Below are positions 5,479-42,999 of a stretch of 54,871 nt of DNA, piece after piece. Source of the DNA: a virus; the IMG/VR virus record IMGVR_UViG_3300031759_000031, positions 1-54,871 of that record, one strand, 5' to 3'. Made by a program: the position numbers and the translations under genes. The stretch's first letter is position 1; each line of letters starts with the position of its first letter. The notes under the pieces were generated by a model. The model searched no databases and was not told the DNA's origin. It saw only the letters and a list, made by a program, of their open reading frames with translations.

Positions 5479-5504
5479 GGTTGTCGCTCATCCTTATTTC
5501 AGTA

Positions 5505-5512
5505 TATTTATC
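5505..5512 (-). promoter_or_regulatory. Late promoter GATAAATA for fibre gene
   Basis: The minus strand reads TGATAAATATAC in the 44-base gap between fibre genes. RNA would start near 5499, giving a 21-base leader to the ATG at 5478. Confidence 0.65.
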
Positions 5513-5522
5513 ATAGTTTTGC

Positions 5523-6914
5523 TTACCAACCAGATGTTGTTAAAGCCGCTCTACCCCATGTAGCATTTCCGGTAGTTCCACCGCTTACACATACATAGAT
5601 ATAACTAGAATCCCATGCAATCTGCCCTGTTGTACCTGCCGCTGAATGACTTGCAGGAGTTGATGTTGCAGTTGCAATGAAATTAGTTGCTATGACACTT
5701 GAACTGGAATGTATTATTCCGCCCACATCTAATGGATATTGAGGTCTACTAGACGATGTAAATCCGTTGATACCAATATTACCAGTATTAGAACTTATAA
5801 AAAGTGCCGAACTATTAGAACTTACCGGTAAAGAAATTTCAAAATCCTGAGATGAAATATTAGATTGTATTAAAAATTGTGTAGAATTAACATTGATTTG
5901 CGATTGGTTTGCTGTTCCTAATGTTAAAGGTATAGCATTGTTAATCTGTAAAGATCCGCTTGTTGTATTTTGATAAGTGTCGGTTGATAAGAATTGTTCA
6001 GCTGATTTTAAAGATCCGTTGGCCGCAAGTAGTTTGCTGGCTTGACTTGTTGGAACATTAAAACTAATTCCTGCCCAAGTACTAACATTAAACCCAACAT
6101 TGATTGTACCTTGAATTGCATTTAAAGTTGTAGGATTTCCGCTAGTTGCAACAGTTTGGCTTACACTGACACTATATGTTCCAACTCCGCCTTGTGCTAC
6201 TCCGGCACCGCCTGGCCCTGTACCATATGCAGTAATAACTGTATTAGAAGCAATAGTGTTAATGCCTGGAGTTGTTATTGATTGTCCAACGCTGAGTGTT
6301 CCAGAAGTTACACCAGTCACTGTTAATGTATTGCCAACAATATATCCTTGAAATACTGCTGTACTTGTGTATCCGCTTATACTGCTAGAAGGACTAGGTG
6401 TAAATGAATCTTTAGAAAAGACACCCATCAATGTACTACCAACATATAACAATACGATTACGTGAGATACTCCGTTTACATCTGTTACAGTTTCAACTAC
6501 AAATCCCGAAGGACCTTGTTTTTTAGTATAAATTGGTCCAGCTAAATTATTTGCAGTACCATCATTAAAATATAATTGACTAGTTGCTGTATTAATCCAG
6601 AAACCGCCTGTACTTAATCCGCTAGGAGCAGTATCGCCTAAGAGTGTATTACCAGTTGGGGCAAATGTTGTTCCATTCCAAACTTTTAAAATATTTGCAC
6701 TGGTATCGTACCATAGCTGACCTATAATTGGATAATTAGGTTGACTTGTATTTGCAAAATTTTCTAACAACTGTACAAAATTTTCGTTGATGTACTGTCC
6801 ATAACTAGTGGCGTTTTGTCCGATTAAAGTTAATGATGTATGACTTTGATCGATTGCACCGTTAGAAACTGCTGTTAATTTATTGCCATTTGTTAGATAA
6901 ATTGAATAGGTCAT
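5523..6914 (-). CDS. Tail fibre protein, shared N-terminal domain
   Basis: 463-aa probable tail fibre protein. The N-terminus repeats the domain of its neighbours (SYGQYINENFVQLLENFANT, IIGQLWYDT, LKVWNGTTF). Around residue 185 it carries the mobile module FQGYIVGNTLTVTGVTSGTL followed by GGVGTYSVSVSQTV, which also occurs in the two paralogous genes at 35-3971. The C-terminal 75 residues (GNIGINGF, then AAGTTGQIAWDSSYIYVCV and a terminal WGRAAL) are a widespread phage-fibre end domain. The ATG overlaps the stop of the upstream fibre gene by four bases (ATGA), so the two are translationally coupled. The fibre call rests on domain resemblance; the host target is unknown. Confidence 0.75.
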   Translation of the reverse strand: MTYSIYLTNGNKLTAVSNGAIDQSHTSLTLIGQNATSYGQYINENFVQLLENFANTSQPNYPIIGQLWYDTSANILKVWNGTTFAPTGNTLLGDTAPSGLSTGGFWINTATSQLYFNDGTANNLAGPIYTKKQGPSGFVVETVTDVNGVSHVIVLLYVGSTLMGVFSKDSFTPSPSSSISGYTSTAVFQGYIVGNTLTVTGVTSGTLSVGQSITTPGINTIASNTVITAYGTGPGGAGVAQGGVGTYSVSVSQTVATSGNPTTLNAIQGTINVGFNVSTWAGISFNVPTSQASKLLAANGSLKSAEQFLSTDTYQNTTSGSLQINNAIPLTLGTANQSQINVNSTQFLIQSNISSQDFEISLPVSSNSSALFISSNTGNIGINGFTSSSRPQYPLDVGGIIHSSSSVIATNFIATATSTPASHSAAGTTGQIAWDSSYIYVCVSGGTTGNATWGRAALTTSGW

Positions 6915-9196: not shown

Positions 9197-9808
9197 TTAT
9201 ACTCCTACTAGGCCAGTTAAACTTTGGATACGTACAGTATAATCGATTTGAATTAATCTGTTAAGACTTTTTAAAACTGGATGAAATATAACATGAGTTA
9301 GTAGTAAACTATTTCCGCTTGCACTATAACTTTGTAATCCTAATTCATCGAACACATACGTTGTTTCGCCTGTTGAAGAAGTATCGTATGCACTTTGTCC
9401 GCCAGGCTCACCGTAATCCAGTAAACAAGTACAGAAAATATCTGTGTAGTTAACACCGGTCACATGGCGAACTTCAGTAAAGTTGCGAGTTGGATCGGTA
9501 TTTGTGCTAGCAGTTGGGTCGATTACTTTTTTATATGTTTGATTGTACAAGCTGGCATTTGTTCCGCTGGTATTAGGTGTAAGATATGTAATAATTCCTG
9601 TAGGATCAATACTGGTTCCACCGTTACCAAAATTCATCTGGTAGATATATCCGCCATCTGTATTGTTTGACAAACTGGCAGCCAGGGCGTAACTTATGTT
9701 TTCATAATGAATAGCGTTACGTTTATTAACGAAAATTTCTTTGGAAACTGGGTCAAATATTTTAATATGACCTTCCACATGAATTCCTGTTTGATCTTTA
9801 GTCTGCAT
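9197..9808 (-). CDS. Virion-associated protein of unknown function
   Basis: 203-aa protein that I do not recognise with certainty. An upstream in-frame ATG at 9838 would give 213 aa, but I prefer the ATG at 9808 (MQTKDQTG): it has a purine-rich site (AAGAGAG) just upstream, and a late promoter (9829-9836) would start RNA near 9823, downstream of the longer start. The sequence has an N-terminal EGHIKIFDPVSKEIFVNKRN segment, a middle part with GNGGT and a PTRNFTEVRHVTG stretch, and a C-terminal IQIDYTVRI strand. Position between the sedolisin gene and the fibre genes suggests a tail accessory or fibre-attachment protein; this is inference. No signal peptide or membrane segment is seen. Confidence 0.65.
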   Translation of the reverse strand: MQTKDQTGIHVEGHIKIFDPVSKEIFVNKRNAIHYENISYALAASLSNNTDGGYIYQMNFGNGGTSIDPTGIITYLTPNTSGTNASLYNQTYKKVIDPTASTNTDPTRNFTEVRHVTGVNYTDIFCTCLLDYGEPGGQSAYDTSSTGETTYVFDELGLQSYSASGNSLLLTHVIFHPVLKSLNRLIQIDYTVRIQSLTGLVGV

Positions 9809-9828
9809 AGTTGTCTCTCTTAGTCTTA

Positions 9829-9836
9829 TATTTATC
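9829..9836 (-). promoter_or_regulatory. Late promoter GATAAATA
   Basis: The minus strand reads GATAAATA, one base from the T4 late element TATAAATA. With T4 spacing, RNA would start near 9823, 15 bases before the ATG at 9808. Confidence 0.6.
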
Positions 9837-9859
9837 AATATTTTAATATGCTAGTTTAA

Positions 9860-11434
9860 TTATCTAACACCTGTTGTTTTTCTTGGATATGACGGTCCTG
9901 ATGTAGGTCTAAAACCATAATTTTGTTTTGGAAAAGTACTTCCTGTATGGAAGTATTTGTATATCTGATCAACTTTTGGAGTACCAAGACCTGTAACCGC
10001 ATCCCAGCCTGTAGTTGTAGTATAGCCCGTAGTATAGCCGTCTCTATTATCACCGCTAGTAATATCGTTAAACAATAATGCTCTGTTTGAATACCATGTG
10101 GACATATTGAATGGAATACGCTGTCCTAATTGTTGATTTAATCTAGCCCAAATACCCGCCAATAAAGGCGCCGCGGCGCTAGTTCCGCCTACTTGATTTA
10201 GCACACCATTTACGTAGTACGCATATCCCGTGTTAGGATCAGCAGGAGCACTTATATCTGGAACACCCCGATAAGGTAGTGCAGTTGGTGAACCTGTCGA
10301 TGATGCTGTAATAGTAGTTGTTGTTAGTCCTGATTGCCAGCTAGGGAGAGGAACACTAGCACTAACGCCGCCGCCAGATCCGCTCCAAGCTGTTTCACTA
10401 GTAATTTGAGCACTACCGTTTAGATTAATTGAAGTTCCGCCGGCCGATACCATATATGGACTACAACATGTAGCGGCTGTACTTAGATTAACTGCACCGT
10501 TATCGCCTGAGCTTATAAAAACTGTTATACCCTTAACTACACAAGACTGAAGTGCTGTATCATATTGTGTTCCATCACCGATGCCCCAACTCACATCAAG
10601 GGCAGTTGGATTATTTGTAGTGTCTGCGGCTACTGCTAGAAAAATATCATTAATAGGTGCGGTTCCAGTATTGGGTGCGGTATAGTATGCAATCAATGCC
10701 TTTGGTGCTACACCACCTGCACAAAATATATCTAGCATACTTTCCAAATCACTAGTTGTGCTGGCAGTAGCACCGTCGACACTTATTTGTACTATAGTTG
10801 GAGCTGAAAGTCCAATCCTACTAAAACTACTATTAACATCAGTTTGGTTGTATCCTGTTACGTATCCGCTATAGGTTAATTCAAAAATTCCAACACATCC
10901 GCCGTAGCCATTAGACGGAGGCATATTATAAGCTATGGACATTTGTACAGGAGTTACTGCTGTCAAAGGATTTGCTACACTAGCTTCACAAACTACCGCA
11001 TGTTTCTTTGCAATAAAACTTTCATCAAACCCTAGTACCTGTTCAACCATACTGGAAATATCTGCAGGTACTATTACTGGACTGTCGTGTGATGTATATG
11101 TTCTACCAGTATCATCGGTAACATCCAAAAGTGTTATATTAAAAATATTATTAAAATTTTCAACAGTTCCAAAAACTCTAATTAATCCTTTAACTCTGCT
11201 AGCTTCTACTATTTTAAATCCTATGTCTTGGAAAAAATCATTCACTTCTATAGTATTAGATTCTGTTGATCCGAACTGATACACATACTCATCGTGATCC
11301 AAAATTGGGTGAGTACCGTCAATTACAGCATCTGCATATTCTTTCAAAGTCATCCCATTATCGTGCGTATCCCTATGCAGGTACACACTGATTGTCATTG
11401 TATCTGAAAGATTTTTTAATCTACTAAACGTCAT
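9860..11434 (-). CDS. Sedolisin-family (S53) serine-carboxyl peptidase with pro-domain
   Basis: 524-aa predicted pro-peptidase of the sedolisin/kumamolisin family (MEROPS S53), a subtilisin-fold acid endopeptidase. Residues about 50-150 match a pro-kumamolisin activation domain (VNDFFQDIGFKIVEASR, then LIRVFGTVENFNNIF). The catalytic domain has the Glu/Asp pair in DLESMLDIF (E231 and D235, the family's four-residue spacing), the oxyanion Asp in SSGDNG (D311) and the nucleophile in GGTSAAAP (S419). The C-terminal calcium site is present: FNDITSGDN (D457) and GWDAVTGLGTP (D478). There is no signal peptide. It lies 1 base from the 890-aa fibre gene, inside the tail block, so it is probably a virion-associated protease acting on host surface protein or maturing tail proteins. 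Family assignment is strong; the phage role is inference. Confidence 0.9.
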   Translation of the reverse strand: MTFSRLKNLSDTMTISVYLHRDTHDNGMTLKEYADAVIDGTHPILDHDEYVYQFGSTESNTIEVNDFFQDIGFKIVEASRVKGLIRVFGTVENFNNIFNITLLDVTDDTGRTYTSHDSPVIVPADISSMVEQVLGFDESFIAKKHAVVCEASVANPLTAVTPVQMSIAYNMPPSNGYGGCVGIFELTYSGYVTGYNQTDVNSSFSRIGLSAPTIVQISVDGATASTTSDLESMLDIFCAGGVAPKALIAYYTAPNTGTAPINDIFLAVAADTTNNPTALDVSWGIGDGTQYDTALQSCVVKGITVFISSGDNGAVNLSTAATCCSPYMVSAGGTSINLNGSAQITSETAWSGSGGGVSASVPLPSWQSGLTTTTITASSTGSPTALPYRGVPDISAPADPNTGYAYYVNGVLNQVGGTSAAAPLLAGIWARLNQQLGQRIPFNMSTWYSNRALLFNDITSGDNRDGYTTGYTTTTGWDAVTGLGTPKVDQIYKYFHTGSTFPKQNYGFRPTSGPSYPRKTTGVR

Positions 11435-11435
11435 A

Positions 11436-14108
11436 TTATACTTCCAACTTCAGATATGAGATTGTAACTGTTAGGTTAGATTGTGAAATACTGCTATTGT
11501 TGTATATTTTCAAATACATATTTGTGCTAGGAGTTGCATCACCATTGAATCCTATGACTGCTGGTGTGAAATAAACAGTACCGCTTACAGTACCAGTAGT
11601 TATTGCTTCGGCGATAACTCCTGATCCTGGAGTAGGATCTGTAGTAATACTTCTACTGCTGTCGTTTGATTGTGCTGTAGTAGTTGTATAAACAGTTACC
11701 CATGCACCCGCTGAACATGTTATACTATACAATGCATATCCTTTAGCTGCCGTTACAGTTGTAGTTGTGCTTGCACCAGATGTTAAGTTTACGCTTGTGC
11801 TAACTGTAGCTCTACTACTTAATGTTCCAGCAGATACGTTTGCTGTAATTATTCCGCCACTAATTGTAATAGTGGACCCGTCAACTTTGACTGCACCTAG
11901 CTGTGTTGTTGAAGCCGTAGGAACTGAAATTGTTCCTCCGCTAACTGTAATTGTAGTTCCATCTGGTTTAACAATACCTGCCGCGCCAGTTGTTGCTAAA
12001 GTTCCGCCTGAACTGCTAATCACTCCGCCACTGATTGTAATTGTAGAACCGTCAACTTTTACGCCACCCAGTACACTTGTTGTTGCAGTTGGCAATGAAT
12101 AAGAACTATTTGCACTAATTACTCCGCCACTGATTGTAATTGTAGAACCGTCAACTTTTACGCCGCCCAGTACACTTGTTGTTGCAGTCGGCAATGAATA
12201 AGTTTGAGCTGTAATAACTCCACTACCGTTAATTGTAATTGTTGATCCGTCTACTTTGACTCCGCCCAATGTTCCGCCACTAGTTGTACCTGCTATTGGG
12301 AGAGTATATCCGCTACCTCCTGCGGCACTGATAACTCCTCCTAAGATTGTAATTGTCGATCCGTCAACTTTTACGCCACCTAATTGTGTAGTAGATGCAA
12401 CTGCTAAACTAATTGATCCGCCAGTATTATTAATACCGCTTGAACTAACTGGTTGTATACTTACACCGCCAAGTGTACTTGTACCGGCAGCTGGCAATGA
12501 ATAGCCGCTACCAGATGCTGATATAACTCCATTACTAATAGTAATAGTGCTTCCGTCCACTTTAACTCCACCCAACGTATTTGTACTTGCTGTGGGCAAT
12601 GTATAAGTTGCTGACATTAGTCCGCTAATACCATTGACAGTGATAGTCGTTCCATCAGGTTTAACACCGCCTAACACACTAGTTGTAGCTATCGGTAATG
12701 CGTAAGTTGAACTAATAACACCATTACTAATAGTAATAGTAGATCCATCTACCTTAACTCCACCCAGCGTATTTGTACTTGCTGTAGGCAATGTATAACC
12801 ACCAGAACCTCCAGTAGAACTAATAACTCCGTTAGTTATAATAATTGTACTTCCGTCTACCTTAACTCCGCCCAATACACTTGTAGTTGCTGTTGGTAAC
12901 GTATAATTATTACTTGGTGTTGCACTAATGACTCCGTTACTAATTGTAATCGTTGACCCATCTATTTTAACTCCGCCTAATACACTTGTAGTTGCTGTTG
13001 GAAGTGCATATTGTGTACTGCTAATAACTCCATTGTTTATTGTTATTGTAGATCCATCTATTTTAACTCCGCCAAGTATACTTGTAGTTGCAGTAGGTAG
13101 ACTGTATTGTTGAGCACTAATAACTCCGCCTACACTAGTGATAGTAGATCCATCAATCTTAACTCCGCCTAATTGCGTTGTAGTTGCTGTTGCTAAAGTT
13201 ATTGTTCCGCTTGAATTGTTTAATCCGCTAGTAGTAACCGTAGGAATTATTACACCACCCAAATTGCTAGTAGTAGCCGATGGCAATGAATAATTGATTG
13301 CACTACTAATAACACCATTGCTAATCGTAATAGTGCTTCCGTCTACTTTAACTCCGCCAAGTATACTTGTAGTTGCTATTGGTAATGAATAATTTGAACT
13401 AATAACACCGAGGCCACTGATTGTAATAGTAGATCCATCTACCTTAACTCCGCCCAAAGTACCAGTACTTGCTGTTGGAAGTGTATATCCGCTACCGCCT
13501 GCACCTGTTGCACTAATTACTCCGTTACTGATTACAATAGTGGATCCGTCAACTTTGACACCGCCCAGTACGGAATTAGTAGCAACTGGTAAAGTATAGC
13601 TACTGGCTGTTGAGCTTATTACACCATTGTTAATTGTTATGGTTGTACCGTCAACTTTAACACCGCCAAGTATTGCTGTAGTAGCAGTTGGCAATGAGTA
13701 TTGAGTAGTAGTTAATTGGTTTGAACCGTTTAGAGTTATTGTTGTACCGTCAATTTTAACACCGCCAAGTATACTTGTAGTTGCAGTAGGTAGACTGTAT
13801 TGACTAGTACTTGCTTTAATAATTCCGTTGGTAATAGTAATTGTTGTACCGTCAACTTTAACGCCGCCCAACTGTGTTGTAGATGCTATGGCTAAACTAA
13901 TTGCTCCGCTAGAATTTATTAGTCCGCTGGCAGCGGTAGCAGGAATAGTTACTCCTCCTAATATTGATGTTGTTGCTGTAGGCAATACATAAGATGGCTT
14001 ATTATACAATTCTGTAAAATTAGCATTAATTTTTATGCCGGCTGTACGTAATGTGTCTCCCGTACCTGAATTAACAGCCGTTCCTGTGTTGATTAATTGT
14101 TGTGCCAT
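11436..14108 (-). CDS. Tail fibre with about 18 tandem LGGVKVDGSTITI repeats
   Basis: 890-aa fibre protein. Residues 1-37 (LINTGTAVNSGTGDTLRTAG, INANFTELYNK) are a phage-fibre N-terminal motif seen in many T4-like phages. Residues about 38-780 are a tandem array of roughly 33-residue units of the form Y-x-LPTATTS-x-LGGVKVDGSTITI-x-NGVIS. I count about 18 Y-x-LP units plus four variants in which a longer insert carries a second TTQLGGVKVDG. The C-terminal 100 residues (GYALYSITCSAGAWVTVYT, DPTPGSGVIAEAITTG, GFNGD) are a known fibre end domain. The regular array predicts a long trimeric beta shaft. A good AAGGA site precedes the ATG. The shaft geometry is inference. Confidence 0.85.
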   Translation of the reverse strand: MAQQLINTGTAVNSGTGDTLRTAGIKINANFTELYNKPSYVLPTATTSILGGVTIPATAASGLINSSGAISLAIASTTQLGGVKVDGTTITITNGIIKASTSQYSLPTATTSILGGVKIDGTTITLNGSNQLTTTQYSLPTATTAILGGVKVDGTTITINNGVISSTASSYTLPVATNSVLGGVKVDGSTIVISNGVISATGAGGSGYTLPTASTGTLGGVKVDGSTITISGLGVISSNYSLPIATTSILGGVKVDGSTITISNGVISSAINYSLPSATTSNLGGVIIPTVTTSGLNNSSGTITLATATTTQLGGVKIDGSTITSVGGVISAQQYSLPTATTSILGGVKIDGSTITINNGVISSTQYALPTATTSVLGGVKIDGSTITISNGVISATPSNNYTLPTATTSVLGGVKVDGSTIIITNGVISSTGGSGGYTLPTASTNTLGGVKVDGSTITISNGVISSTYALPIATTSVLGGVKPDGTTITVNGISGLMSATYTLPTASTNTLGGVKVDGSTITISNGVISASGSGYSLPAAGTSTLGGVSIQPVSSSGINNTGGSISLAVASTTQLGGVKVDGSTITILGGVISAAGGSGYTLPIAGTTSGGTLGGVKVDGSTITINGSGVITAQTYSLPTATTSVLGGVKVDGSTITISGGVISANSSYSLPTATTSVLGGVKVDGSTITISGGVISSSGGTLATTGAAGIVKPDGTTITVSGGTISVPTASTTQLGAVKVDGSTITISGGIITANVSAGTLSSRATVSTSVNLTSGASTTTTVTAAKGYALYSITCSAGAWVTVYTTTTAQSNDSSRSITTDPTPGSGVIAEAITTGTVSGTVYFTPAVIGFNGDATPSTNMYLKIYNNSSISQSNLTVTISYLKLEV
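11850..13990. repeat. In-frame tandem coding repeats, about 100 bp per unit
   Basis: The DNA encoding the fibre shaft is itself repetitive. Blocks such as GTAGATCCATCTACCTTAAC and close variants recur about every 93-110 bases. Synonymous positions differ between units, so the array is ancient and held by protein-level selection, not freshly duplicated. Confidence 0.85.
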
Positions 14109-14111
14109 CTT

Positions 14112-17100
14112 TTATCCTTGGTCCATTGTTGTGTTTCCGGTATCTAAACTAACATTATTACCGTCAAATGTTGGGTCTGTACTATTACTTATTTGAATAA
14201 AGCCATTATACCATATGCCAGGTTGTGCCTTAACAAAGGTTGATACAGTATCTTTTCCTTGTAAAATACTAGTCGTAGAAGTACCAGCACGTACACTTGG
14301 GGACTGATTTAATTGTTTTAAATCGTATCCATCCCATAGTGTTCCAGTAGTTCTGACCACTGTTATTAATGTACCAAACGCTGGAGCATTTGTTAATGTA
14401 ATTGTTGAAGTTCCATTAACTGTAAAATCCGCAGGATAACTTACATCACCTGCTGGACTATACGGTGCATTATTAATATCAAATATCTTGTAAGATTGTT
14501 TCTTTAATCGAACAAGATCATTTTGTCCACCTACAAATATTTCAATCTGGTTAGCCGATGTAACAGTATACGGCAATGTGATTGTAGTTGTACCTAAACT
14601 TGTTATTTGTGTTGTCTGAACTGTGTCAATATAAGGAATAGTTTCACTTGGGCCGATACCTTGTACAAATGTTCCAGATGGATTTACTTTTGTTACTCCT
14701 GTACCTAACGTACCTCTGCGAAGTTGTCCTAGTGTATTTCCGGTTAATGTGAAGTATTCAATGCGTTCGCCTCGAATTTCAACAACGCCTGGTTTATTAT
14801 TAGAAGGACTCGGTATATCAAGATTGCTTGCATCTGATACAATAATTGTAGTATCATTCCAATGTAGTGTTTGTGCTAGTGTTGTTTGTTTATTCAAATT
14901 CAAACGTTTATAATTTACACGATTCAACATGTCTTTAAATTGCATATATGCAATACTAGTTTGAACTACATTATTACCAAATGTAATTAATGTAACTGTA
15001 TCCGTAGGAGATAATGTTTTTGCCAATGTGATACTTTGGAAATCACTATTTAAAATGTAATCAATGCTGTTAGATAACAATGTTGAATTTTTTATTACCC
15101 AAACATAATTTCCATCAATTACTGGACGATCTAATTTGATAATGCCGCCTGGTATATTTTTATAATTGAAATAACTAGTTGAGCTTGGAGTTATGTTATA
15201 ACTTGAGTTATACTGAATAGTTGTTCTTTGAATATCCAATACATTCTGCACATAAGAACTAATAATTTCAACCACACCAGATGGAACTGTTGCAAATGTT
15301 ATTTGACTAGTAGAAGGATTATAAGCATAGGCATTGTTTGCAACAATACTTACAATTAATTGCTGTCCAGAATATTGAGAATAAATTGCTCTATTAATCT
15401 TAATAGTAATACCAGTTGGGTCTATGCTATAATCAGAAGATGCATTTAATAAATTATTACCTGCATAAACTAGAATGTTATTAGTTGTTACTGACTGAGG
15501 AACAGCCTTAGATGGATCAATGGTATAATTTAATCTATTACCACCAATTGTAAAATAACTGTTGACTGGTGCGGACAATATTGATTGTCCTACACGTACA
15601 ATCATATTACTTTCGTAAGGTAAATTATTTCCAATTGGGTATGACAAAGTGTAAGCCGATACACCAACTACTGGTGTAATTGATTGTGTTGTTGTGATTG
15701 CAAATGTTTGTTGCAAACCAGACACTATAATATAATTGATTAATGCACCGGCTGGTGGAGGAGATGCAAATTGTATTCCAATAAATCCAGCAACTTCATA
15801 AGATGTATCTGTTTCAAATAAAGTCACTGATGTTGCAACACCGTTTACATACACTAAACTTGTTACAGTACTATTCCAGCTAGCTCTTGTTATAAAATCA
15901 ACTGTTGTACCATCACCAATAAAATAATCAATATCTAACAAATTAGATCCACTAAATCCGACACTATAAATTGATACAAGTTGGTTTGCTGTTGGAGTAT
16001 TGATGAATGTAATATTAGGAGTTGTAGTGTAGTTAATCAAATAATCAGTATTATAAGTTACAATATTACCATTAAGTTTAACAATAATAGCTCTTGAACT
16101 ATTAGGTTGTTGTCCAATATTATAAGTCGATGTTATTCCATCAGTTTCATAGTTAACAACTTTTATGTTAGCTGAACCTGTTCCAGTTTGATCATATACT
16201 TTAATTGCAAGTGTATCTACTACTTGTCCCGGTACTACTTCTTCTGGTGCAGGGCTAGATGTTGGTGTAACAAATCCGTCACCGTCTAATAAAATATCAT
16301 CAGGTGCTAGTCCGGTTGCAGTTGTATAAGCTAAATTGCCGCCATCTAATTTTGTATCGTAATCAGTATCCGGTGTTGGTACTGAACCATCACTAGTACT
16401 TTCACGTAGAATAAATCTGTCTCCAGTATTTACAGTAAAAGAAGCAGGAAGTTCTATGACATTTGTAATAGATTGATCAATCACAGTTCCACTTAAAGTA
16501 GATGCAAAACTAGTAGTACTAGCCGACCCGCCATAATCGACAGCACTAAAAGATACTGATAAACTAGCACCACCGCCACCGATCGTTGCAGGAGTAATAG
16601 TAGTACCAACTACTGGAGTTTTTATAATAGCGTTGGCATTGGTTTGCTGTGCTGTTCCAAAATTAGGATCATCTAATCTAATTGGACTATATGTTCCAGT
16701 TATATTAATGGTAGATCCCACTGGGTACGCTGTTTTTAATGTAGCACTACCTGGTATTAGTACAACATCAGTTAATTCTTGTAATTTTTCTGTAAATGTA
16801 ACTTGTGTCGAAGGTAACATGTTAGTTAAAATAACTTGACTCAACGTTACAGCATTAGTCGATGTGTTAATTGCTGTAATTGTTGTATCATAACTAAAAG
16901 AACTCACTGTAGCGGCTGTTCCTGTTCCTGATCCTACACCTGTTGCAGTAAATGATTCTCCTGTTTGATTAGCTAATGCGCCGATTAATGTAAAATCGGT
17001 TGATCCAATACTGCTAATTGTATAAAGAATACCCGGAGTAAATGACCCCGCAGTAACCAATGCGTTAGTGACTACGGCTCCAACTTTTAATCCGTTTAAA

Positions 17101-20100
17101 GAATTAAGTGTTAATACATTACCTCCTGCAATATTAGAAACTGTAAGAGAACTACCGTTAGTAGGTAAAGAAGAAAATATTATTGCTTGATCATTTGGTG
17201 GAGTTGCATCCGGTGGAGCACTAATTTTTAAAATTGTGCTACTGACAACACTAACTACAGTTTGTCCAGACAAGAAATATGCCGGAGTTGCAACACCGTT
17301 GACTGAAGTAGTCGATGTTATTAACATTCCAGGAATAATTTTTGAAGTGCTTGACACTTGTAAAAGTATACCTGAACTACCGAACGAATTATAAAAACGT
17401 AGGTAAGATAAATTATCTGGAATAGAATCTAAGATAAGTGTTGTACTATTTTCTATTCGAAGAATTTTTTGTCTACTTAAAAATCCTTGTCCATAAATTC
17501 TCATACCAGGTACCATACCTGTAGTAGACGCAACTTTAACTATAAACCCTGCACTACCTAAAGAATTATATGTTGTAGTAATTCCAGAAGTTAACGCACT
17601 AGTTGTAATTGTTACCGATGGACTAATTAAATTTTGATCCACTGGGTAAACAAGTGTACTACCGTCCGATGTGTATGAATAAGTTTTTTGTTTAACATAA
17701 TATACGTTGATATTAGTATTGTTAGGTGGTGTATATGGTAACGTGAATACGTGAGTATTTGCTAATACTTGAACAGAGTAATCATTAAAATTAGGATCTC
17801 TACTATCCCATGTATCACTCAAATAAGGTGCATCGTCCCAACCACCTGAAATGTTAAAGTTTAATCCTGTAACTGTTACACCGCCGTAATCTGTTCCTGT
17901 CATTAACTGACTTAAATCTTTACCTAACTGTCCTGTTGTAGGATTGTAAAAATATTGAATTCTGTCTGTAGCTGTTAATACTGAGATATCTTTATGATAA
18001 GTTACAATAATTGTTGATCCAACTGCTATATTAAAAGTAAATGTAATGCTACCGGTATACTGAGTATAACCTGATTCCATTGATGTCACTTTTGAAAGAG
18101 TATATAATTCTCTCAAGACAGGTGTTCCATTTACAGTCACTACTGTTTGATCTATTCTAGTATCAGGTGCCCATGTCAATGGATACTGTACACGATTAAT
18201 TATTGCAGTAAATGTATCAACTTGTTGCAGATTAGTAATATAATATCCATAATTAACTCTATCAAATTTCATACCTACTAAATTTGAACGTACTAATCCG
18301 TTGCCAATAATTGCAACTGCTTGAGCTTGCACTCCGTTTGCACCTAGCCCGCCATTAATTGTCACTGTAGGTGCAAATAAATAACCGTTACCACTTGCAC
18401 CAAATTGATCAACATTTAATAAAGTTATTTTAGAAACTTTACCATTTGAAATCAATGCGTCGGCTGTTGCTGTAACAGGATTTGATCCTGTTGGAGATGA
18501 TATTATAATCTGCGGAACATTAGTATAACCGCTTCCTCCATTTGTAATGACAATTTCAATAACTTTAAATCCAACATTGTCATTCCAAAATTTCCAAGGA
18601 TAACTTTCAATCAACGGATTACTTGTTTGAAGTGTTCCATTAACATCTGTTACTTGTATTGTTGTAAATCCGCCATTTTCGTAAGTAGTTTGTAAATCAA
18701 AATCAGTTACAGCACTTTCAGTTGTATCCATACCAGTATAGTCACTGATATATTCTCTAACTTTTGTTCTGTAAGGTTTAACTTCAGCTACATAATCTTC
18801 AAAATTTCTTAAATTATCAATTGGATAGTTTACAGGCTGACCTAATGTACCTACTTTATGGGTAGCACGTACAAAACTTGTTTTAAATATCCAGTCAATG
18901 AAAGGCTGTTCGCTATGTGCATAACGAACATTAGTAAAGAATAGATCTAAATAATCTTGTTTTAAATCGTCTATTAGAATATTATTTTTAATACAATTAA
19001 GAATTATTCTTAATTCAGCACTGGCTTGTACGTCAAAGTCACCGCCATCGAAAATGTTAGCATCATATCCAACATCTGTACCTGAGAACGAATACAAGCT
19101 AGATTTAAACTGGATCGTTCCATTTTCTATACCGACAATTCGATAACTTTGTGTCCAGTCTACGCTAGTTGAACTAGCATATTTTTCTAATAATATCCAA
19201 TTGCTACTGCTACCATTTATAATCTTAACTAATATACCGATACCCTGGTCACTTAATGCCGAAAGACTTTCATTAACTACAAACAAATCTGCAAATGTGT
19301 TTATTTTAAAATCTGGTCCGTTAAACTGGCTAAAACCAGTTGCATACCAATCAGTGTAACTCCAGTATTTTCTAACATCATATGACTGTGATAAGGATCT
19401 TGACCAAATTCCAGTAGCAGGATCATAAGAGTAAATACTCCATGCACCGTATGCGGTACTGTCGGATAAAATTAATACAGAATAACTTCTAATTGTACAT
19501 ATTGTATTGTTGTTATATCCTTGTCCACCATTAATAATAGTAGCACCAGTTATCTGACCTAGTGCATTAATAGTGGCTTTTACTATTGCGCCTTCACCTG
19601 ATCCAGTAATTTCAATATAAGGTGCATATCCATAACCATTTCCAGCATTTACTATTGTTATCCCAGTGATAGATCCGTTAGTTATAACAGGTTTTACTGA
19701 TGGTAACGCAAATGATCCAATACTAGCAAATTTTAATTCTGCTTCTGTATTATAAGAAATATCCCATAATCCTAGAATTTTATCAGGAGTAGGATCATAA
19801 CTTTCCAACGCCGATATGTTTCTAGAATTAGTTGTTTGGTATGTACTTAATACAAGATTGGTACGTTCAATTAATTCTTTAATTGCTTCTACACGATTAA
19901 CAAACATTCCTTGACGAGGACGATTTTCAATACCGTAACGCAATTTAACTGGTAAGCTAGGATCCGGTACTGGTCTACCACCCTGGTCGACACCACATAA
20001 ACTATCAAACCATTTTTGTTCAATGGTATTTGGTAAATCTACAACAGGATCGTTACTAATTAATTTCCATTGGCTATGAATATTTTGGTCTGTTTTATCA

Positions 20101-23100
20101 ATAGTCCAATATTCAATTGCTAGTGCTACATCAGTTCCGTTTAGATATCGACTTGCATTTATAAGACTAAAGCTATTAGTACCAGTTAATGCAAGACATG
20201 TATAATCTTGTCCGCTTGGATTTGCAATTAAATTTGCAACATCATTTGCAGACATATTTCTTCCATCGACGCTAGGAATAATTTTTTTATTTTTTACCCA
20301 GAAATAATAAGTGTTTGTAAATGTTTTACTTACTGTGTCATATTTTGTAGTTGAGCTATAGGCTGAATTACCGTATAAACTTTTTCCGCTGATACCTGCT
20401 GTTAGTCCAGCTGGTGTATCAGCAATACTATCCCATACACTAGGTAATTGATTATAACTTACCCATTCGTAAATATCAACACTTGCACCTGCGGCAAGTG
20501 TATTCCATGCAGTGTTTCTATATAAAGGATCTGCAAAATAATTATTAACAAATTTACAAGTTCTCAGATCCCACCATAGTTGACCGACTGGTTGGTCTGA
20601 CCACCATCCTTCAATTCCGTTTGAAGATGCAACATTAACTGTTACTGTACTATCACTGTAACTATAAGTTGCTGGGTCAAAGAACGTTTGATATTTGATT
20701 TCTTCTTCGGCAGGACCTGGAATTTTTCCTTGTAAAGGATCTACAACATCCAAATAAGTAGACAATGTTCCTAATTTTTTATTATACAGGAATGCTTTTT
20801 TAATTTTACTTACATCTGGAATGGATACTTGCGTGTTATAAATTGTCCAGGCAAATACATTACTTAACTTTGTATATGTATAAACTTGTCCAGATTCAAT
20901 ATTATTAAACATTGCATACGGGGCACTAATTGCAATTTGATTATTGCCTACTGCAAATCCAGTTCCGTATCCTTCTCCAAATTTATTTTCAGTTGCTAAT
21001 GATTCGCTGAATATCCATTTACTATTGTATCTGTCGTAAATGTCAACCCTACCACTTGCATTATCTGCTGTTAAAAAATCAGTTGAATTTCTGTCAAATG
21101 TCGTTGTAGAGCTATCAAAGGAAGTACTAACTGTAGTATCACCGTATAAACTATAAACAACAATAGTTTGACTATCATTCATAAATGATATCTTGTTACC
21201 AAATAAAGAATTAGTTTCAGGATTATTACTAATTAATGCTTGATTAAAAATATACTGTCCATTTACAAGAGAATATACATTGATACCGCCTGCTTGCACT
21301 TTTGTATTACTTTGTGTATCATCGGAAATAGCAATATAATTTCCATAGTCGGATATTGCTATTCCAAATCCAAAATTAGAGTCAGATCCAACTAACACCT
21401 GCATAAAATCAGGATTGTTAACATCAGACACATCGTACACACTTACTGCACCGGATGACGATACTAATAATGTGTTTCCATCTGCTGTTATTTTTAATGC
21501 ACTACCAAAATTTACAGGGTTAGTTAACGATGCATCTGGATCGATATGTCCACTATAAGTCCATGTGTGTTCTACAAAGTTAATTGTTCCGCCTGGTAAA
21601 CTGTTTTGATCAACCGGTGAATCTAAGAATAACGTATTCAAAGGTATAATTGGAGCAGAAGTTCCGCTTAGTTGATTAGTGCTAGCAACAGCAAATGTTA
21701 AATTAACATCGTTATTAATAACCAGTTGTGTAATGGATGTACTCATGTCTTGAGTAGAACCAACAATCAAATAACTAAATGCTTGTTGTGATCCGTTTAT
21801 TGTAAGATTTTCTTGTCCCTGGCTTATTACAATAGTATCAGGTAGAATATTTGTACCTGTAACTGTCATACCTGCCAACACCTGACTTAAATTATAACTA
21901 GCACTATTGGTTACACTATAGTAAGAATATAATATGAATTTGGTTAATACATAATCAACTTTTTGACCACTAGTGTATCCACCGTTTGCACCAGACACTG
22001 CTATCATACCTGCACGTATTCCAAGAGTTGAATTAACTACTAAAATATTTTGTCCTGACTGAACTAAATTGTTGAATATAACTGTAGTTGCAACTCCTGA
22101 TCCTGATCCAACGTTAGTTGCAATAAACGTTACGCCAACAGTATTTGCAGTTGCACCCATTGTAGTAAAATCTGTTGTACCTAGAGTGTAAATTGTATAA
22201 GTTGTTCCTATAACAAATGACCCAGCCGTTACTTTAAGTATTTCAGATGTAGTAACTCCTTGGTTTACTGCTTCACTGCCTACAGGATTATACTGTGACG
22301 AAGCCAGTGTGACTGTTGTATATCTTAATTGATAAACTCTACCTGCTCCGTTATTATGTCCAGGAGCACCAACGTACATAACATTATTTCCAAAAGCTAC
22401 ACTAGAACCAAATTGTTCATTAGTACTAGGAGATGGACTAATAATTGAATCAACTAAACTATAATTGTTATTTAAATCTTTAACATACAGGCTTATCGCA
22501 CCTTGTCCTACTATTGTGGAATTTATCCCCGATAAAGAATTTACAGGAACATACGGAATAATTTGCCATGATAAAGATGTTGAGGACGGAGCAATTCCAT
22601 TACTAGTAATCAAACACTCATAAAATATTCCATTTGTATCAGATACAATACTTCCAGGAGTATACGTATTGCTACTGTTATACAGTCCTACATAGCTGGT
22701 TGCTACTCGGTTGACTGTTGGACTACCGCCAACTAGCCAGACTCCGTCATCACTAAAACTTAACACAGTAGAAAGTTGTGTAGGTTTTGTATTTTGTATT
22801 GGATACAACGGATTAGGGTTAGACATGAAAGGTGCAGTAAGAGTTGAGCGTTGTGCCCAAGGAACTACTGTTCCTGCTTTATCATAGGTAGTAATAACAC
22901 CGGTTGATCCATTAGTTACTGCTAGTACAGAACCTTTACGATTCATAGCTACAACTGAACCAAATTGTAAATTTGCAGAGAATGAAATATTTGCCAAGGA
23001 AGATTGGCTAAACGCTGGATTGTATTTCCAAGTAGCCCAAGATCCTGCCCCACTATCATCGGTCCAAACTAATTCACCGGCTTTAAGTTTAACTGTATTA

Positions 23101-26100
23101 CTTGTTGAATTCACAGTGTCTATACCTGCAAATCTTCTTGATACTAAAGAATACATTACCATCTGTCCAGTTTGTGTAAACGGAGATGGAAAATTTGAGA
23201 TTTTAGTATTGATAGTAATTACATTTAAATTAACAGTAGCAATTTGATAAAACCCATCAAAAGTACTTAGATAAACACCTTGACTATTAATAGTTCCAGT
23301 TTCTCTTACTCCAATGTAAGAACCTGCTGTTAATGGTAAGCTATTCAATGCTGTTATTGTTAGTACTCCGTTACTGTATGCAACAGATGATACTCTGATT
23401 TTTAAATCTGTAAAACGATATATATTCCAACTGTTATTATCAAATGCAGTCCAAATATACTGGCCTTCATCGATTGAAGTAATGGGGTATAACAAATTTC
23501 CTTTACTATCGGTATCGTTAATATTTGATAATGATTTTAAACTAAATTTAACATCTGCTGGATTAATATAACCAGCATCACGCAATAACGGATTATAATT
23601 TGTGTTTACTGGAAATGGATTAGAATTATAGCCGAGTGGTTTTACATATACATCATTAGGTGTTTGTTGATTCACAAAGTCGCTAATATTTTTATTAATA
23701 GAATTTGTTAAAAAATATCCTTGAGGATTATTTCTAAAATCTTTTTGGTCTAACACAAATTCTATATCCTCAAAAGCATTAGTTGCCCCATATCGGCCAA
23801 CACGCAATGCCCACTCTTCATAAAATACTAGACTCTCCGCTTTGTCTTCGCTCAATACTCCAAACAAATGATTCAGCACATTTTGTGTACCTTTATCTCG
23901 AATCATACCTTGATAGAATTTAAATTCGCTGACAGGGTCTTGTATGATATTATCCAGGTACTGTCTTTTTTGATAACCAATTAAATGTTGTGCAAATTTC
24001 TGTTGATCTGTATTAAAATTATCAACGTTAAGACTATAAAAATCTACAAACTGTGTAGCAACATTTGTCCAGTTTGGCAATAGCTGTGCCGATGGTTTAG
24101 ATTTTAATCTGGTCCATTGCTCAGATACAAAATTAATTGTTCCTGCTGTAAAGGCATTAGCACTATAATAGTTTCCTTGATATTCAATGATATCGGCCAT
24201 ATTATAATCTTGCCACGCTTGCCAAGAATCGATCTTAGCGGCATCATACACAAATCCAGGAATATCTAATCCGCCGTACCAGCCTTCGGTTACATACCCT
24301 GACAATTTTAAACGTTCTCTTCTATAACCTGTAGCAGGATTATAAATGATATCATTAAAAATATCTGTATTATTAATTGTCACTACATGTTCATTTTGTA
24401 TCAAATAAAAACTTGCACAATAAATTCCATGTGTACCTCTTGGACTATATGTAACGGTATTTCCAGTTCGATAGCTATCTATATCGTTTGGAGTTAAAGG
24501 CGTACCGTCCACTTTAAATATTTCATAGCTGTTGAACGGATTACTTATACTGTCAACAACTGTCAAATTAGTAATAAAATTGATACCATTGGCACTAGGA
24601 CTTAAACTGATAACACTACTTCCAAGATTGCTTAATCCAGGTAATGCAGTCCATAGATTGTATTCAAACACAGCAGATGCCGGAATATTGTAGTTTGCAC
24701 TATAATAATTGCCGTCGTATCGCACTACAGTTCCGTAACTATAAGGTTGATTTACAGACCAGTCAGACCATTTTTCTTGTCCGTTACTCCAGTTTTGTGT
24801 TGTCCAGAACATGAACTCTCTAGCACTAGTGGACCAATTAGCAACACGGCCAAGATTATTATTGAAATCATCAAATATGAATCCTTGACTTAAAAGATAT
24901 TGTTCATATCCTAATAAAAAGTCTACTACTTCTTGAATAGTAGTTAATTGTGTTCCGTAAGGCAATGTTTGTAAAGATGTGGTATCCCATGCCGATCTGA
25001 AAACAGCAGATACTCCGCCAGTTAACGGAAGAGATGCCAATAATGCGAATGATTGACTATTAAAAGTTTCAGTAGCAACTGTACTAGTTACTGCTCTGTA
25101 ATAAGAATTTCCATATTGCACAATCTGTCCGGCTGTATAAGATTGTCTCGGAGTCCAAGTTACAAAACTTTCTGAAATTCCTCCGACATTGACTGTGATG
25201 CCTGATTCTAAATAATTAAAATAATTAAAATATGGTTGTGTTTTACTATAACCTTTAATTTCAAAACCGGTTGATAATTTTGTAATAATCACACCACTAT
25301 AGGTTATTTTTTGAACAGGGCTAGAACTATTTAAAAATATGTTATAACTTTCTGGAGGAATAAAAACACTACCGGTAGCCAATGGGGTTTTACTTTCTAA
25401 TAGTAAATTAAATTGTGGCTGGTTAGTAAATGCTCCAACTCTATAACTTAATTGAGGAGTTAAATTAGCTAAATTTGCAACATATAAATTATATGAATCT
25501 TGATTATTACTAAAAATAATATTTGAAATAAGATCAACTACATAATTGATTAGTCCAGCTGTTTGTACTCTAGATTTACTAGAATATAAATTAGGAATTT
25601 TTACATCAGCTGGTCGAATACGTAGCCCGGTGTCTTTATAAATTAATTGTCCGGCAATATTTCTTTCAATTCTAAATCGATCTAACAAAATTCCAAAAGT
25701 TTTAGCAGGAGTTAACAACAAAGAAGATACTAACACACTAAATGGATAATAGCTACTGCGTCTCCATGCTGATTCAACTGGTCCCACATCTCCAAATACA
25801 AAGACACTATTTGTATTTTGTAATAATGGTCCGCTGGCCAATCCGCTAGTTGCAGGACTTACTAAGTTTCCAGATTCGTCAACTGGTAAATGATTTATTA
25901 AGAAAGGTCTTGCAAATTTAGATAATTTAATAACAGGCATCCCAGGTTCTTTAACAAGTCCTGCAGAGATATCTTGCCACATAGGTAAATTATCACTAGT
26001 ATAAGGTGCTGGACCATACACACTAACCCACCAATTGGGTTGCTGACTAAATCCTAACATTTCCCATGGGCAAAGATTAGGACGATCGGTATCTAGCATC

Positions 26101-29100
26101 CAGCGATATACACCTCTCCAAAATCCCGGAACAGGGTTACCGTCCGGTGATGTATCAAAAGAATAGTTATAAGTGAATAGATTAGCAACATCAAAATTTA
26201 CAGGTTGAGTAAAATCTACGCCTACTAATCCAACCCAAGAATAGAATGAAGGAGAAAGTACCTCGTTAAATTCGCTTAGGGTGTAAGGAGTAGTTCGGTT
26301 ATATCCTGGAATTATATCTGCGACATCAAAAATTGTAGAATCGTATTTTACTTTAATATTATTAAAAATTCGTGTTTCTAATTCTAATAATACTGCATCT
26401 CTATAGTCGCCATATGCTAACACAATGCTACCGTCGTGCCCTTGTATTACGTTTTGCGGAGATGCTAGTGTTGTATCTAAATAAATTTTAGGAACAAATG
26501 CAGGCCAAATTCCTAATTTAGTAGGAGTTGGCGGAACAAAACTTCCATCTGTATTATCATATTCTACTGTAGTAATTGTATCACCGTTAGTCAACACAAC
26601 AATATCTGTAATGACAATAAATCCTTGACTATTAAATGTATAGTCTTGTCCGTATATTAACTGAGTTTTTATAGCATTAGTTGTATGATAAACACCGACC
26701 GCCTGATTGCTAAGTTTATCCAACGTAAAAACACTAGTTAAAGGATAAGTTTTTATTCTATAATCTACAACTGTAAGATGTGTAGTAATACTTGCACCGT
26801 ATGGCACCATATCACTAAAATAATAAGGAGCAGTATTTGGTTTGTTACCGTTAATAGATTGCATTACTAATTCAACCATAGTAACTGGATCTGTATCTAC
26901 TCCTAAATTACTAGCTGCCGCAATAAAATTACGTTTAAAACTATTATAATCATCCCTTGCTGTTTCAATAGCTTTAATAATATTATTAGATTCGGATGTA
27001 ATATGATATAAACTTAAACTTAAAGGTCCGCTATGTTGTACAAATTTTGTTCCGTATTGTGTTACATTTCCTAAATCTCTTAAATTATCATCTCCCGGGA
27101 ACACTCCAACAAATCCCGTTGGGAGGTTGTCAATAATACTAACAACATGGTCAGTAACTTCTCCCAATGTAAATGTATCAATAATATCATTTAATGGATT
27201 ATTTTGAAGATTCAACGGTATTTCATAATAGCCGTTACTGTTAATTGCTTGCGAACTAAATGCTCTTATTGTTAATACATCTGTTGTAGTAATTGGCGTA
27301 TTCAACACTAATTGTTTGTATTGAGGCGTATCGACTATTGTCCATTCTGAAGGACTAACTCTAAAACTATTAATATAAACTTTAACTACAAGATCTGATA
27401 AGTTTTTTATGTCATCAAAGATGTCAATGTTAAAATTATTTGTTTGTTCAGCACCTTCATAGATACGCACAGCGGCTTGTACTGTTGGTGTGGTACATGT
27501 TTGCCAGCCGTTTACATAACTAGAAACTCCTGCAAAATTAGTTTTTAATAAAAATCCGGTATCAATACCTGTTGTGATAGTAGTCGAATTGTCTTTATAA
27601 TTGAATGTATCTATTGCAAGATTAAAATTAAAAACAATATCTCCAATATTTGCAACATTTAAGTAGCTTAATGGAAATCCTAAAACTGAATCACTTGGGC
27701 CTGATCCTACTTGATAAGAAAACAGTTTAGTTCCTGTAAACGTAGAACCTGGATAAGTGGAAACATCACTAAAACTTATTTCATTATTGTCAAATATATC
27801 AAATAACGGTGGTTGGTTTGAAGTTGTTTTTTGTTGTCCTTCAACCCATGCTGTACCATTATACCAATACATCTGGCTTTGACCTTTAACTCCTTGTAAT
27901 ACTAGTACTGATTGATTCAATTCTGGAGTTGCTACTTGAGTTAACTGTATTTGATTGCGACCTTGAATGTTTACAAAACTTACTTGATATATATTTCCTC
28001 GCACTAAAGGATCGGCATTTGCATTTGTAAACAATATGCGTTGCCCATCGGCTAATGAAATACCATCAATCGTATATCCTAACGACCCTTCAATTACATT
28101 AAAGACATCAGTTGTGTATGTATCAACTAAATCCACATCTGCTATTGATATCGTTCCTGTATTAAATAATTTTAAACCAGCTTCAAATTCAATAATAGGT
28201 CTGTTAGCTCTTGCTGTTTGATCTAATGAAGGAACATCTGTATTATAATTTGCACTAGCTATAATAACATCTTTATGAAACCAACGATTGATCCTAGACC
28301 AAGGATTATGATCAGTACTTGCACGATTAATTACTATATAATCTTTAACATTTGCATAGCCTGTTGAATCATCAAAGGGCAACGAAGCAAATGGTGCAGA
28401 ATCAAATTCGACTGATAAATTGGAAGTATAAGGACTCAATATCTCTAGTAATTTTTCAGAAACTAATTTAATTGCAACGCCAACTCCTTCAACATAATAG
28501 CTACCAATAGCATATTGCGATGGAGCTACATTTCCACCAAAATTTACTTTCATCCCGTTACTTAATGCAGTTCCGTCTGAAAGGGTGTATGTTTGTTTTC
28601 CAATAATTTCTTTATCTACGTCAAGAAATGTATTATCTACAATGTCAAAAATTTCAATGGCGCCGCCTAAATTAATATCAGTTTCGCTTTGATAAAATAT
28701 TAAACTAGGAGCATTAAGCGGTACTGTAAATGTTATTGTTCCTAACTCTACGCTATGATCACTAACTCCTTCTTTATATAGATACCCTTGTTCTATACTA
28801 CGTTCAGTCATAAAACTAAAAGGATTACCCGGGCTTACAATATTAAAATTGTAAGTTTGACCTCTATATAATTTTAATACAGGATTTAAAGTTAGTCCGT
28901 CAGGTGTAAACAAATATTCATTTGTATTACCTTCAGCCTGTATTGCAACATTGTAAGTACTATTCGTACCTAGTTGCTGACCGTAAATTGTAATAGTGTC
29001 AGGGCCGTATGGTAACCAATAGTAATCTTGAAAGTTTACAAATTTGTCCCAATCGATATGAGGATCCCAACTATAGAATTCTTGATTGTTTAATCTGTTA

Positions 29101-42555: not shown

Positions 42556-42999
42556 ATGTCTTGGACTTATCAATCTCAACCAATAGAAACACTACCAGAA
42601 GACTGTATAGGATTTGTTTATATCATAACAAACACTACTAACGGTCGCATGTACATAGGCAAAAAACTAGCTAAATTCTCAAAAACCACATACAAGACAG
42701 TAAAATTAAAGAACGGCAACAAGAAAAAAAAGAAAATTCGTAGCAAAATTGACTCAGACTGGCGGGAATATTATGGTTCAAGCCCAGAATTAAGCAAGGA
42801 TGTTACGGCATTAGGCACAGAAAATTTTACAAGAGAGATACTGTTTCTCTGTCGAAGCAAGGCAGAATGCAGTTATATAGAGGCTAGAGAACAATTTTCA
42901 CGCAGAGTTTTAGAATCAAATGACTATTATAATGGTCATATTCAAGTGCGTGTACATGGTTCACATATTCGCAAACTTCAAGAAAACCAGGCAAAATAA
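42556..42999 (+). CDS. GIY-YIG endonuclease, SegE-like
   Basis: 147-aa protein with a GIY-YIG nuclease core: GFVYIITNTTNGRMYIGKK carries the two conserved strands (here FVYI and YIG), followed by a Lys-rich linker, then SKIDSDWREYYGSSPELSKD and a CRSKAECSYIEAREQFSRRV segment with the catalytic-type Glu. The family matches freestanding homing endonucleases of T4 (SegE type). No DNA-binding appendage of I-TevI kind is visible, so it is freestanding or minimal. No clear Shine-Dalgarno precedes the ATG. An A8 run near 42723-42730 encodes the Lys stretch. It directly precedes the structured non-coding region 43000-43492. Confidence 0.8.
   Translation: MSWTYQSQPIETLPEDCIGFVYIITNTTNGRMYIGKKLAKFSKTTYKTVKLKNGNKKKKKIRSKIDSDWREYYGSSPELSKDVTALGTENFTREILFLCRSKAECSYIEAREQFSRRVLESNDYYNGHIQVRVHGSHIRKLQENQAK

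Follow-up and report, generated by a model that had tools for sequence, protein, structure and literature searches.

An S53 pro-peptidase gene amid fibre and baseplate genes

The window analysed here is the whole of a 54,871-base virus record (IMG/VR IMGVR_UViG_3300031759_000031). Its major capsid protein is 72.5% identical to the one in the 469-kb Sinorhizobium phage Phosso and 66-70% identical to those in other large T4-like phages listed; this set also supplies the matches of its wedge and p213 proteins. Minus-strand transcription runs from the baseplate wedge gene through the genes for a giant protein, a repeat fibre, an S53 peptidase and p213 to a run of fibre genes (Table 1). Domain searches identify the neighbours as a repeat fibre (PF11133), a collar fibre (PF07484) and a baseplate-wedge gene, in agreement with the fibre setting proposed in an initial annotation of this DNA. 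Contrary to the reading direction implied there, the peptidase gene reads from 11434 down to 9860 on the minus strand, and translation of the plus strand over this interval meets numerous stop codons. The p213 gene is listed with a TTG start codon; the ATG at 9808 is a more likely one. In Phosso and Atu_ph07, the counterpart of the giant protein (about 4,450-4,560 aa) is annotated as "virion structural protein" or "structural protein", and no protease is annotated between it and p213, the two genes adjoining in Phosso and being separated by two small ORFs in Atu_ph07.

Table 1. Features of the protease locus and its surroundings in the window
Feature	Position	Strand	Basis or remark
S53 (kumamolisin-type) pro-peptidase gene, 524 aa	9860..11434	-	ORF list, Pfam, phmmer, model alignment
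Pro-kumamolisin activation domain, aa 10-137	11024..11407	-	PF09286
Catalytic domain, about aa 158-497 (E231, D235, D311, S419, D457, D478)	9944..10963	-	phmmer, alignments, model
C-terminal tail, aa 499-524 (..STFPKQNYGFRPTSGPSYPRKTTGVR), proposed docking peptide	9863..9940	-	pLDDT <50, predicted disordered; common to S8
Repeat-fibre gene, 890 aa, protease partner; ends 1 nt before the S53 start codon	11436..14108	-	PF11133, phrog_15343, pairing
C-terminal "tip" domain of the repeat fibre, aa 763-890 (128 aa), beta-sandwich	11439..11822	-	alignments, model
Giant protein, 5108 aa, precedes the fibre gene; marker of the slot on the other side	14112..29438	-	ORF list and neighbourhood comparison
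Baseplate wedge gene	29438-32938	-	transcribed before the giant protein
p213 gene (PHROG 11259), conserved downstream of the protease slot	9197..9838	-	PHROG match, neighbourhood comparison

Late control of the peptidase gene, also proposed in the initial annotation, is plausible without being borne out at the gene itself. ATAAATA sites, which we take to be T4-type late-promoter-like, are few in the window; those on the minus strand (32963, 9835 and 5511) stand immediately ahead of the genes for the wedge, p213 and a 495-aa protein, respectively, and none directly precedes the S53 gene. Elsewhere, a 147-aa ORF (42556-42999, plus strand) has a GIY-YIG-nuclease-like start, GFVYIITNTTNGRMYIGKK, and presumably belongs to that family. 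Capsid proteins close to that of the window (89-100% identity) were found in 8 of 12 related records examined. The photosynthesis gene family PF00124 was found in 0/12 of these records, which may be incomplete, so there is no sign of a cyanobacterial host.

The protein has the pro-domain, fold and catalytic residues of kumamolisin

The window contains an intact gene for a kumamolisin-type S53 pro-peptidase. The N-terminal part of the protein matches the activation domain PF09286 (E 4.9e-11, 43.5 bits against a cut-off of 23.5), and the sole Pfam family for the catalytic domain is the subtilase family PF00082 (aa 238-463, E 1.6e-11, above cut-off). No family was found for it in NCBIfam or PHROGs. 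When PDB sequences were searched with phmmer, the best match was pro-kumamolisin 1t1e (E 3.5e-61, aa 14-486), the best 15 matches were all S53 members, and E231, D235, D311 and S419 aligned with the E...D, GDSG and GGTSA motifs of kumamolisin. An AlphaFold2 model (mean pLDDT 84.3, pTM 0.87) has the S53 fold. It aligns with intact pro-kumamolisin over residues 1-497 (Z 47.1, rmsd 2.8, 475 residues, 32% identity), its 15 best structural matches are all S53, and S8 structures begin at Z 26. pLDDT falls below 50 in the tail (499-524, except residue 517) and in two stretches close to the active and calcium sites, 313-318 and 461-477. The S53 membership, pro-domain and catalytic set put forward in the initial annotation are upheld by profile search, alignment and model taken together. 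The lack of a signal peptide, also noted there, agrees with a mean hydropathy that peaks at 0.64 over 12 aa near the N terminus. The enzyme is acidic (pI 4.6) and its tail strongly basic (pI 11.1).

With the window S53 as query, tblastn found no match at 1e-5 among 50,697 deposited phage records, and a first scan of genome contigs gave 15 pattern matches, 0 of which were confirmed. Within IMG/VR, 22 loci were found by protein search and 37, these 22 included, by alignment; further S53 genes, among them a type of about 407-413 aa without a pro-domain, surfaced in the tip scans described below. Across 28 aligned phage S53, E231, D235, D311, S419, W283, D457 and D478 are invariant. The tip scans yielded 41 complete phage S53, a set that omits two shorter or broken ORFs (L089 and L287); in these, E231, D235, D311, S419, D457 and D478 are each present in 41/41, W283 in 40/41 and E185 in 30/41; we take the last two to be W129 and E32 of kumamolisin. 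D457 and D478, which we assume to be calcium-site residues with ligand roles, are invariant, but the adjoining loop is the poorly modelled 461-477 segment. A pro-domain is present in 32 of these 41 proteins, the other 9 being pro-less. Pro-less proteins (L057, L067, L072, L074, L077, L083 and L084) keep the catalytic residues, often have a changed E185 position, and form one clade (100/100, six rows). A chance motif match was ruled out by Pfam, phmmer, the model alignment and residue conservation. A host gene introduced by misassembly was likewise ruled out, the gene and its flanks recurring in independent contigs at 42-100% identity.

The best cellular S53 matches (best 80 of 563 confirmed) are 34-41% identical to the window protein. 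In a tree, phage S53 are separated by a 100/99 branch from 35 cellular rows, consisting of 34 picked from the 80 loci plus kumamolisin, with giant-virus S53 left out. These two results rule out recent capture from a sampled bacterium. The long branch of L036 in this tree is spurious and stems from the excerpt used. In a viral structure library, giant-virus proteases are nearest to the window S53, and the phage proteins named among the top rows are S8-like. Two loci have unusual S53 genes. L036 has two, one of which (9989-12571, 860 aa) has a large insert before its C-terminal part and neither tail nor adjacent tip, while the start of the second (21286-21490) lies directly behind a tip ~9 kb from the first. 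In L089 (6377-7643), the S53 gene is split into two ORFs in one contig; it is whole in L084.

Clan-SB proteases are encoded directly behind a conserved fibre tip

At 34 of the 37 S53 loci, the upstream gene ends in a 128-residue tip of the window type, a few nt before the S53 gene. This pairing persists amid different neighbours (L009, L014, L015, L018, L020, L022 and L028). The shaft before the tip is variable, with LPTATTSILGGVKVDG-type repeats in the window and collagen-like GxP repeats in L028. The tip is modelled as a beta-sandwich (pLDDT 93.5). Its good matches are the C termini of Synechococcus phage tail-fibre-like proteins, and its PDB matches are weak, the best (Z 7.9) being at a level common for unrelated beta-sandwiches.

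We scanned IMG/VR three times with different tip alignments and kept the best 80 of each scan, which gave 230 loci that form a best-scoring, non-random sample. At 226 of the 230, a tip match reached the C terminus, yielding 234 tip ends in total and 151 distinct ones. The gene next to these 151 encodes an S8 peptidase in 89 cases (the fibre L099_1264 is not counted among them), an S53 peptidase in 44 and another protein in 15, and is unreadable in 3. A clan-SB protease therefore directly follows 133 of 151 distinct tip ends, with a 1-nt gap in 97 of the 133. In the window and behind all 133 tip ends, the protease is a separate ORF and is not fused to the fibre. Three of the 15 other next genes are fibre-like (L344, L354 and L288_468). 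The tip is conserved to its final residues behind S53 and S8 alike.

In the deposited phage collection, the tip occurs in 48 records, every one bearing the name of a Synechococcus phage, a cyanophage or a marine virus. Of 10 that were inspected, 9 encode next to the tip a protein with the tail motif described below, 8 have the serine motif GTS[MC]A[ST]P, at least 8 have an S8-type protein as the next gene product, and 5 have a next gene annotated as protease or peptidase. The next gene in S-RSM4 is annotated as similar to an S-PM2 structural protein identified by MS.

S53 and S8 proteases share a C-terminal tail

The S53 and S8 proteases behind tips have in common a C-terminal tail with the core RPxSGxxYPR, exemplified by YGFRPTSGPSYPRKTTGVR in the window S53, YLARPSSGTVYPRIRMRIHK in the S8 of L071 and FGLRATSGQTFPRFITQRTK in that of L107. 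The tail pattern is C-terminal in 96 of 118 complete proteases (S53 40/43, S8 56/75). The remaining 22 comprise 17 S8 in which a YPR-like motif is internal and followed by extra protein, 2 with a variant tail and 3 without, the last being short or broken ORFs (L089, L287 and L351). As assessed by a simple pattern, 66 of the 96 contain an earlier similar copy, often about 12 residues upstream. An HMM of 28 distinct S53 tails placed 16 of 25 listed S8 above the HMMER inclusion threshold. When run against 3,250 ORFs (at least 100 aa, from the loci then in the set), it gave 54 matches at E<=1; every matched protein has a clan-SB serine motif, and the cellular S53 loci gave no match. Likewise, [YF]PR was found in the last 45 residues of 0/34 cellular S53 examined. 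Two S53 loci, L034 and L038, have the tail and no detectable tip, which breaks a strict coupling of tail and tip.

A protease acting inside the cell or at lysis on host proteins, its gene lying amid tail genes by chance of transcription, would agree with the missing signal peptide, and we infer the virion location rather than read it directly. Such a role is nevertheless very unlikely, given that a single structural gene is paired with the protease at 133/151 tip ends and that two families carry a common tail. S53 peptidases as a rule require acid for maturation and action, which also speaks against it.

By alignment count, the S8 catalytic triad is intact in 64 of 66 S8 other than a long type that begins with an "EGTDKQ" segment. 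In the long type, Glu is aligned at the catalytic Asp in 9/9, and because of this substitution some of these tip partners may be weak or inactive. One might then ask whether the fibre uses the protease fold as a head for binding or as a cap, with catalysis incidental or lost in some lineages. The substitution in the long type would suit such a structural use, as would the conservation of tail and tip in all protease types. Against it stand the intact catalytic residues in all 41 complete S53 and in the 64 other S8, together with the pro-domain retained by all but the 9 pro-less S53, and we regard it as improbable.

Several S8 loci merit separate description. Long-type S8 are carried by L078, L081, L093, L098, L114, L116 and the S-CAM1 type; the annotation of the S-CAM1 protein itself reads "tail fiber protein". 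In the 345-kb phage of L088, a second S8 (L363) of about 520 aa lacks the tail, and no tip was seen in the 5 kb inspected. In L131 (S-BM3, 4296-6463), the tip is followed first by a 608-aa protein lacking the serine motif and next by an ORF of 113 aa with a YPR-like motif at its end; this may be the arrangement in decayed or split form.

The protease is exchanged or lost in one genomic slot

Related phages share the order giant protein, tip fibre, slot, p213, and the slot contains a pro-S53, a pro-less S53, an S8 or nothing. A pro-S53 is found in the window and in most of the 37 loci, and a pro-less S53 in L084. An S8 occupies the slot in L364 (PF00082, E 2e-28), a phage whose capsid protein is 89% identical to that of the window, and in L071, where the order is tip-S8-p213. 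The slot is empty in L319, L331 and L336, which keep the gene order with the tip fibre. A search for S53 and S8 found none on the L336 contig (102,674 bases, may be incomplete) or the L331 contig (17,178).

In a tree of tips, S8-linked and S53-linked tips are divided at 100/97 with the exception of L071, whose S8-linked tip falls inside the S53-linked clade (100/100). Strict co-evolution of tip and protease was rejected: the pro-less S53 label requires 7 changes on the tip tree, no better than in 157 of 500 shuffles (bootstrap not settled).

These loci bear on the possibility, raised in the initial annotation, that the enzyme matures fibres. An assembly protease could trim the partner fibre or another tail protein, its tail guiding it to the tip, and would not need to remain in the virion; the tight pairing with one fibre gene and the shared tail would fit a protease and its substrate equally well. 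If the fibre were the substrate, a protease would be expected wherever the tip fibre occurs, and this failed in L336, L331 and L319. The fibre-maturation alternative is weakened because the giant protein, tip fibre and p213 persist in relatives whose contigs have neither S53 nor S8. Moreover, the tip is intact to its last residues behind both families, and the use of unrelated catalytic families for one fixed cleavage would be unusual. We therefore consider an assembly protease unlikely. The existence of a protease-less and otherwise intact version speaks for an accessory role directed at the host rather than a requirement in assembly.

A proposed model of a fibre-mounted protease

Because two protease families found after the same tip in many aquatic phages share an end-piece, our findings suggest that the protease is an exchangeable enzyme mounted on the fibre, where it may assist access to the host. 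Pairing with the tip, a tail shared with S8, and swap or loss in one slot, all read from gene and protein sequences, give strong indirect support to a virion-borne, fibre-associated role. We consider it probable that the enzyme is docked by its tail to the fibre tip and cuts a host surface protein. In this model, the 128-aa beta-sandwich at the fibre's C terminus would be the mounting point and the flexible protease tail the docking peptide, so that a constant socket and a constant tail would be combined with an exchangeable catalytic domain. The protease would be synthesised with no signal peptide during infection and kept silent by its pro-domain, which would be the reason why it does no harm during assembly. 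It would attach to the fibre as particles are assembled, mature by self-cleavage near the linker (about residues 148-160) and cleave the surface protein upon adsorption of the next particle. The catalytic domain could be replaced (by a pro-S53, a pro-less S53 or an S8 subtilase) or lost, while the tip and the flanking genes remain.

Several observations run counter to the model in its simplest form. These are the tail without a tip in L034 and L038, the first S53 of L036 without either, the 17 S8 with extra C-terminal sequence, the Glu in 9/9 long-type S8, the tail-less and tip-less second S8 in the L088 phage, and the 15 of 151 tip ends followed by another gene.

More broadly, it is possible, though slightly less likely than not, that aquatic T4-like phages have a modular system in which the tip accepts any tail-bearing clan-SB protease, swapped to match host surface or habitat. 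We speculate that S53 would suit acid freshwater and S8 neutral or marine water. The phage enzymes known to give access to the host are mostly polysaccharide or peptidoglycan hydrolases. A modular tip-protease system, if real, would be the protein-cutting counterpart of polysaccharide depolymerase tailspikes, and a widespread exchangeable protease at the fibre tip would extend the range of targets to host surface protein. It would also account for the unassigned S8 genes that adjoin fibre genes in cultured cyanophages, and the tail-and-socket pair would offer a natural means of mounting enzymes on phage fibres.

Comparison with known systems

The S53 and S8 families are already known, as are annotated S8 genes in cyanophages. 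In our searches of the open-access literature (PMC), we found no description of a phage sedolisin and none linking fibre tip, tail and protease. Related terms do occur in some papers: "subtilisin" names a tail sheath domain (PMC9004378, PMC12796325), "peptidase S8/S53" appears in a putative Geitlerinema prophage region called by PHAST, in an entry that gives no tail setting (PMC5177637), and a subtilisin-like gene is mentioned near phage-like genes of Histophilus (PMC3339403).

The window protein is a member of S53 and resembles kumamolisin and pro-kumamolisin (MEROPS S53; PDB 1t1e, 1gt9) in its pro-domain, its fold and its Ser-Glu-Asp plus Asp residues. It differs in being phage-encoded beside a fibre gene and in having an extra C-terminal tail. 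The "subtilisin-like serine protease" or "peptidase" of the Synechococcus phages S-H38, S-CREM1, S-H9-1, S-WAM2 and Sf-FR1 lies directly after the same tip and has a YPR-type motif downstream of its protease domain. Unlike the window enzyme, these are S8, not S53, and belong to marine or estuarine cyanophages; their annotations make no link between tip, tail and protease. Sullivan et al. 2010 (PMC3037559) describe, for T4-like cyanophages including the Prochlorococcus phages P-HM1 and P-HM2, diverged peptidase genes at syntenic positions (T4-GC 573 and 452) and an S8 peptidase, T4-GC518. The relevant part of that paper names no fibre partner, tail or S53. The Anabaena phage A-1(L) has a virion-borne peptidase domain in its baseplate hub that acts on host cells (PMC10966104). 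As that account describes it, this peptidase is a domain within the hub protein, whereas the window type is a separate S53 or S8 linked to a fibre.

The nearest viral fold matches are S53-like proteases of the giant eukaryotic viruses Barrevirus and Homavirus (E 1.3e-33 and 2.5e-33, 24-26% identity), which are eukaryote-virus proteins of 741 and 972 aa. Tailspike and tail-fibre depolymerases are exchangeable enzymes on the adsorption structure that act on polysaccharide and, as a rule, are built into the polypeptide of the spike itself. The window type would likewise combine an exchangeable enzyme with an adsorption structure, but its enzyme is a protease and a separate polypeptide. Taken together, these comparisons suggest that the arrangement is a variant of the virion-borne adsorption enzymes, its place in the virion being inferred from sequence.
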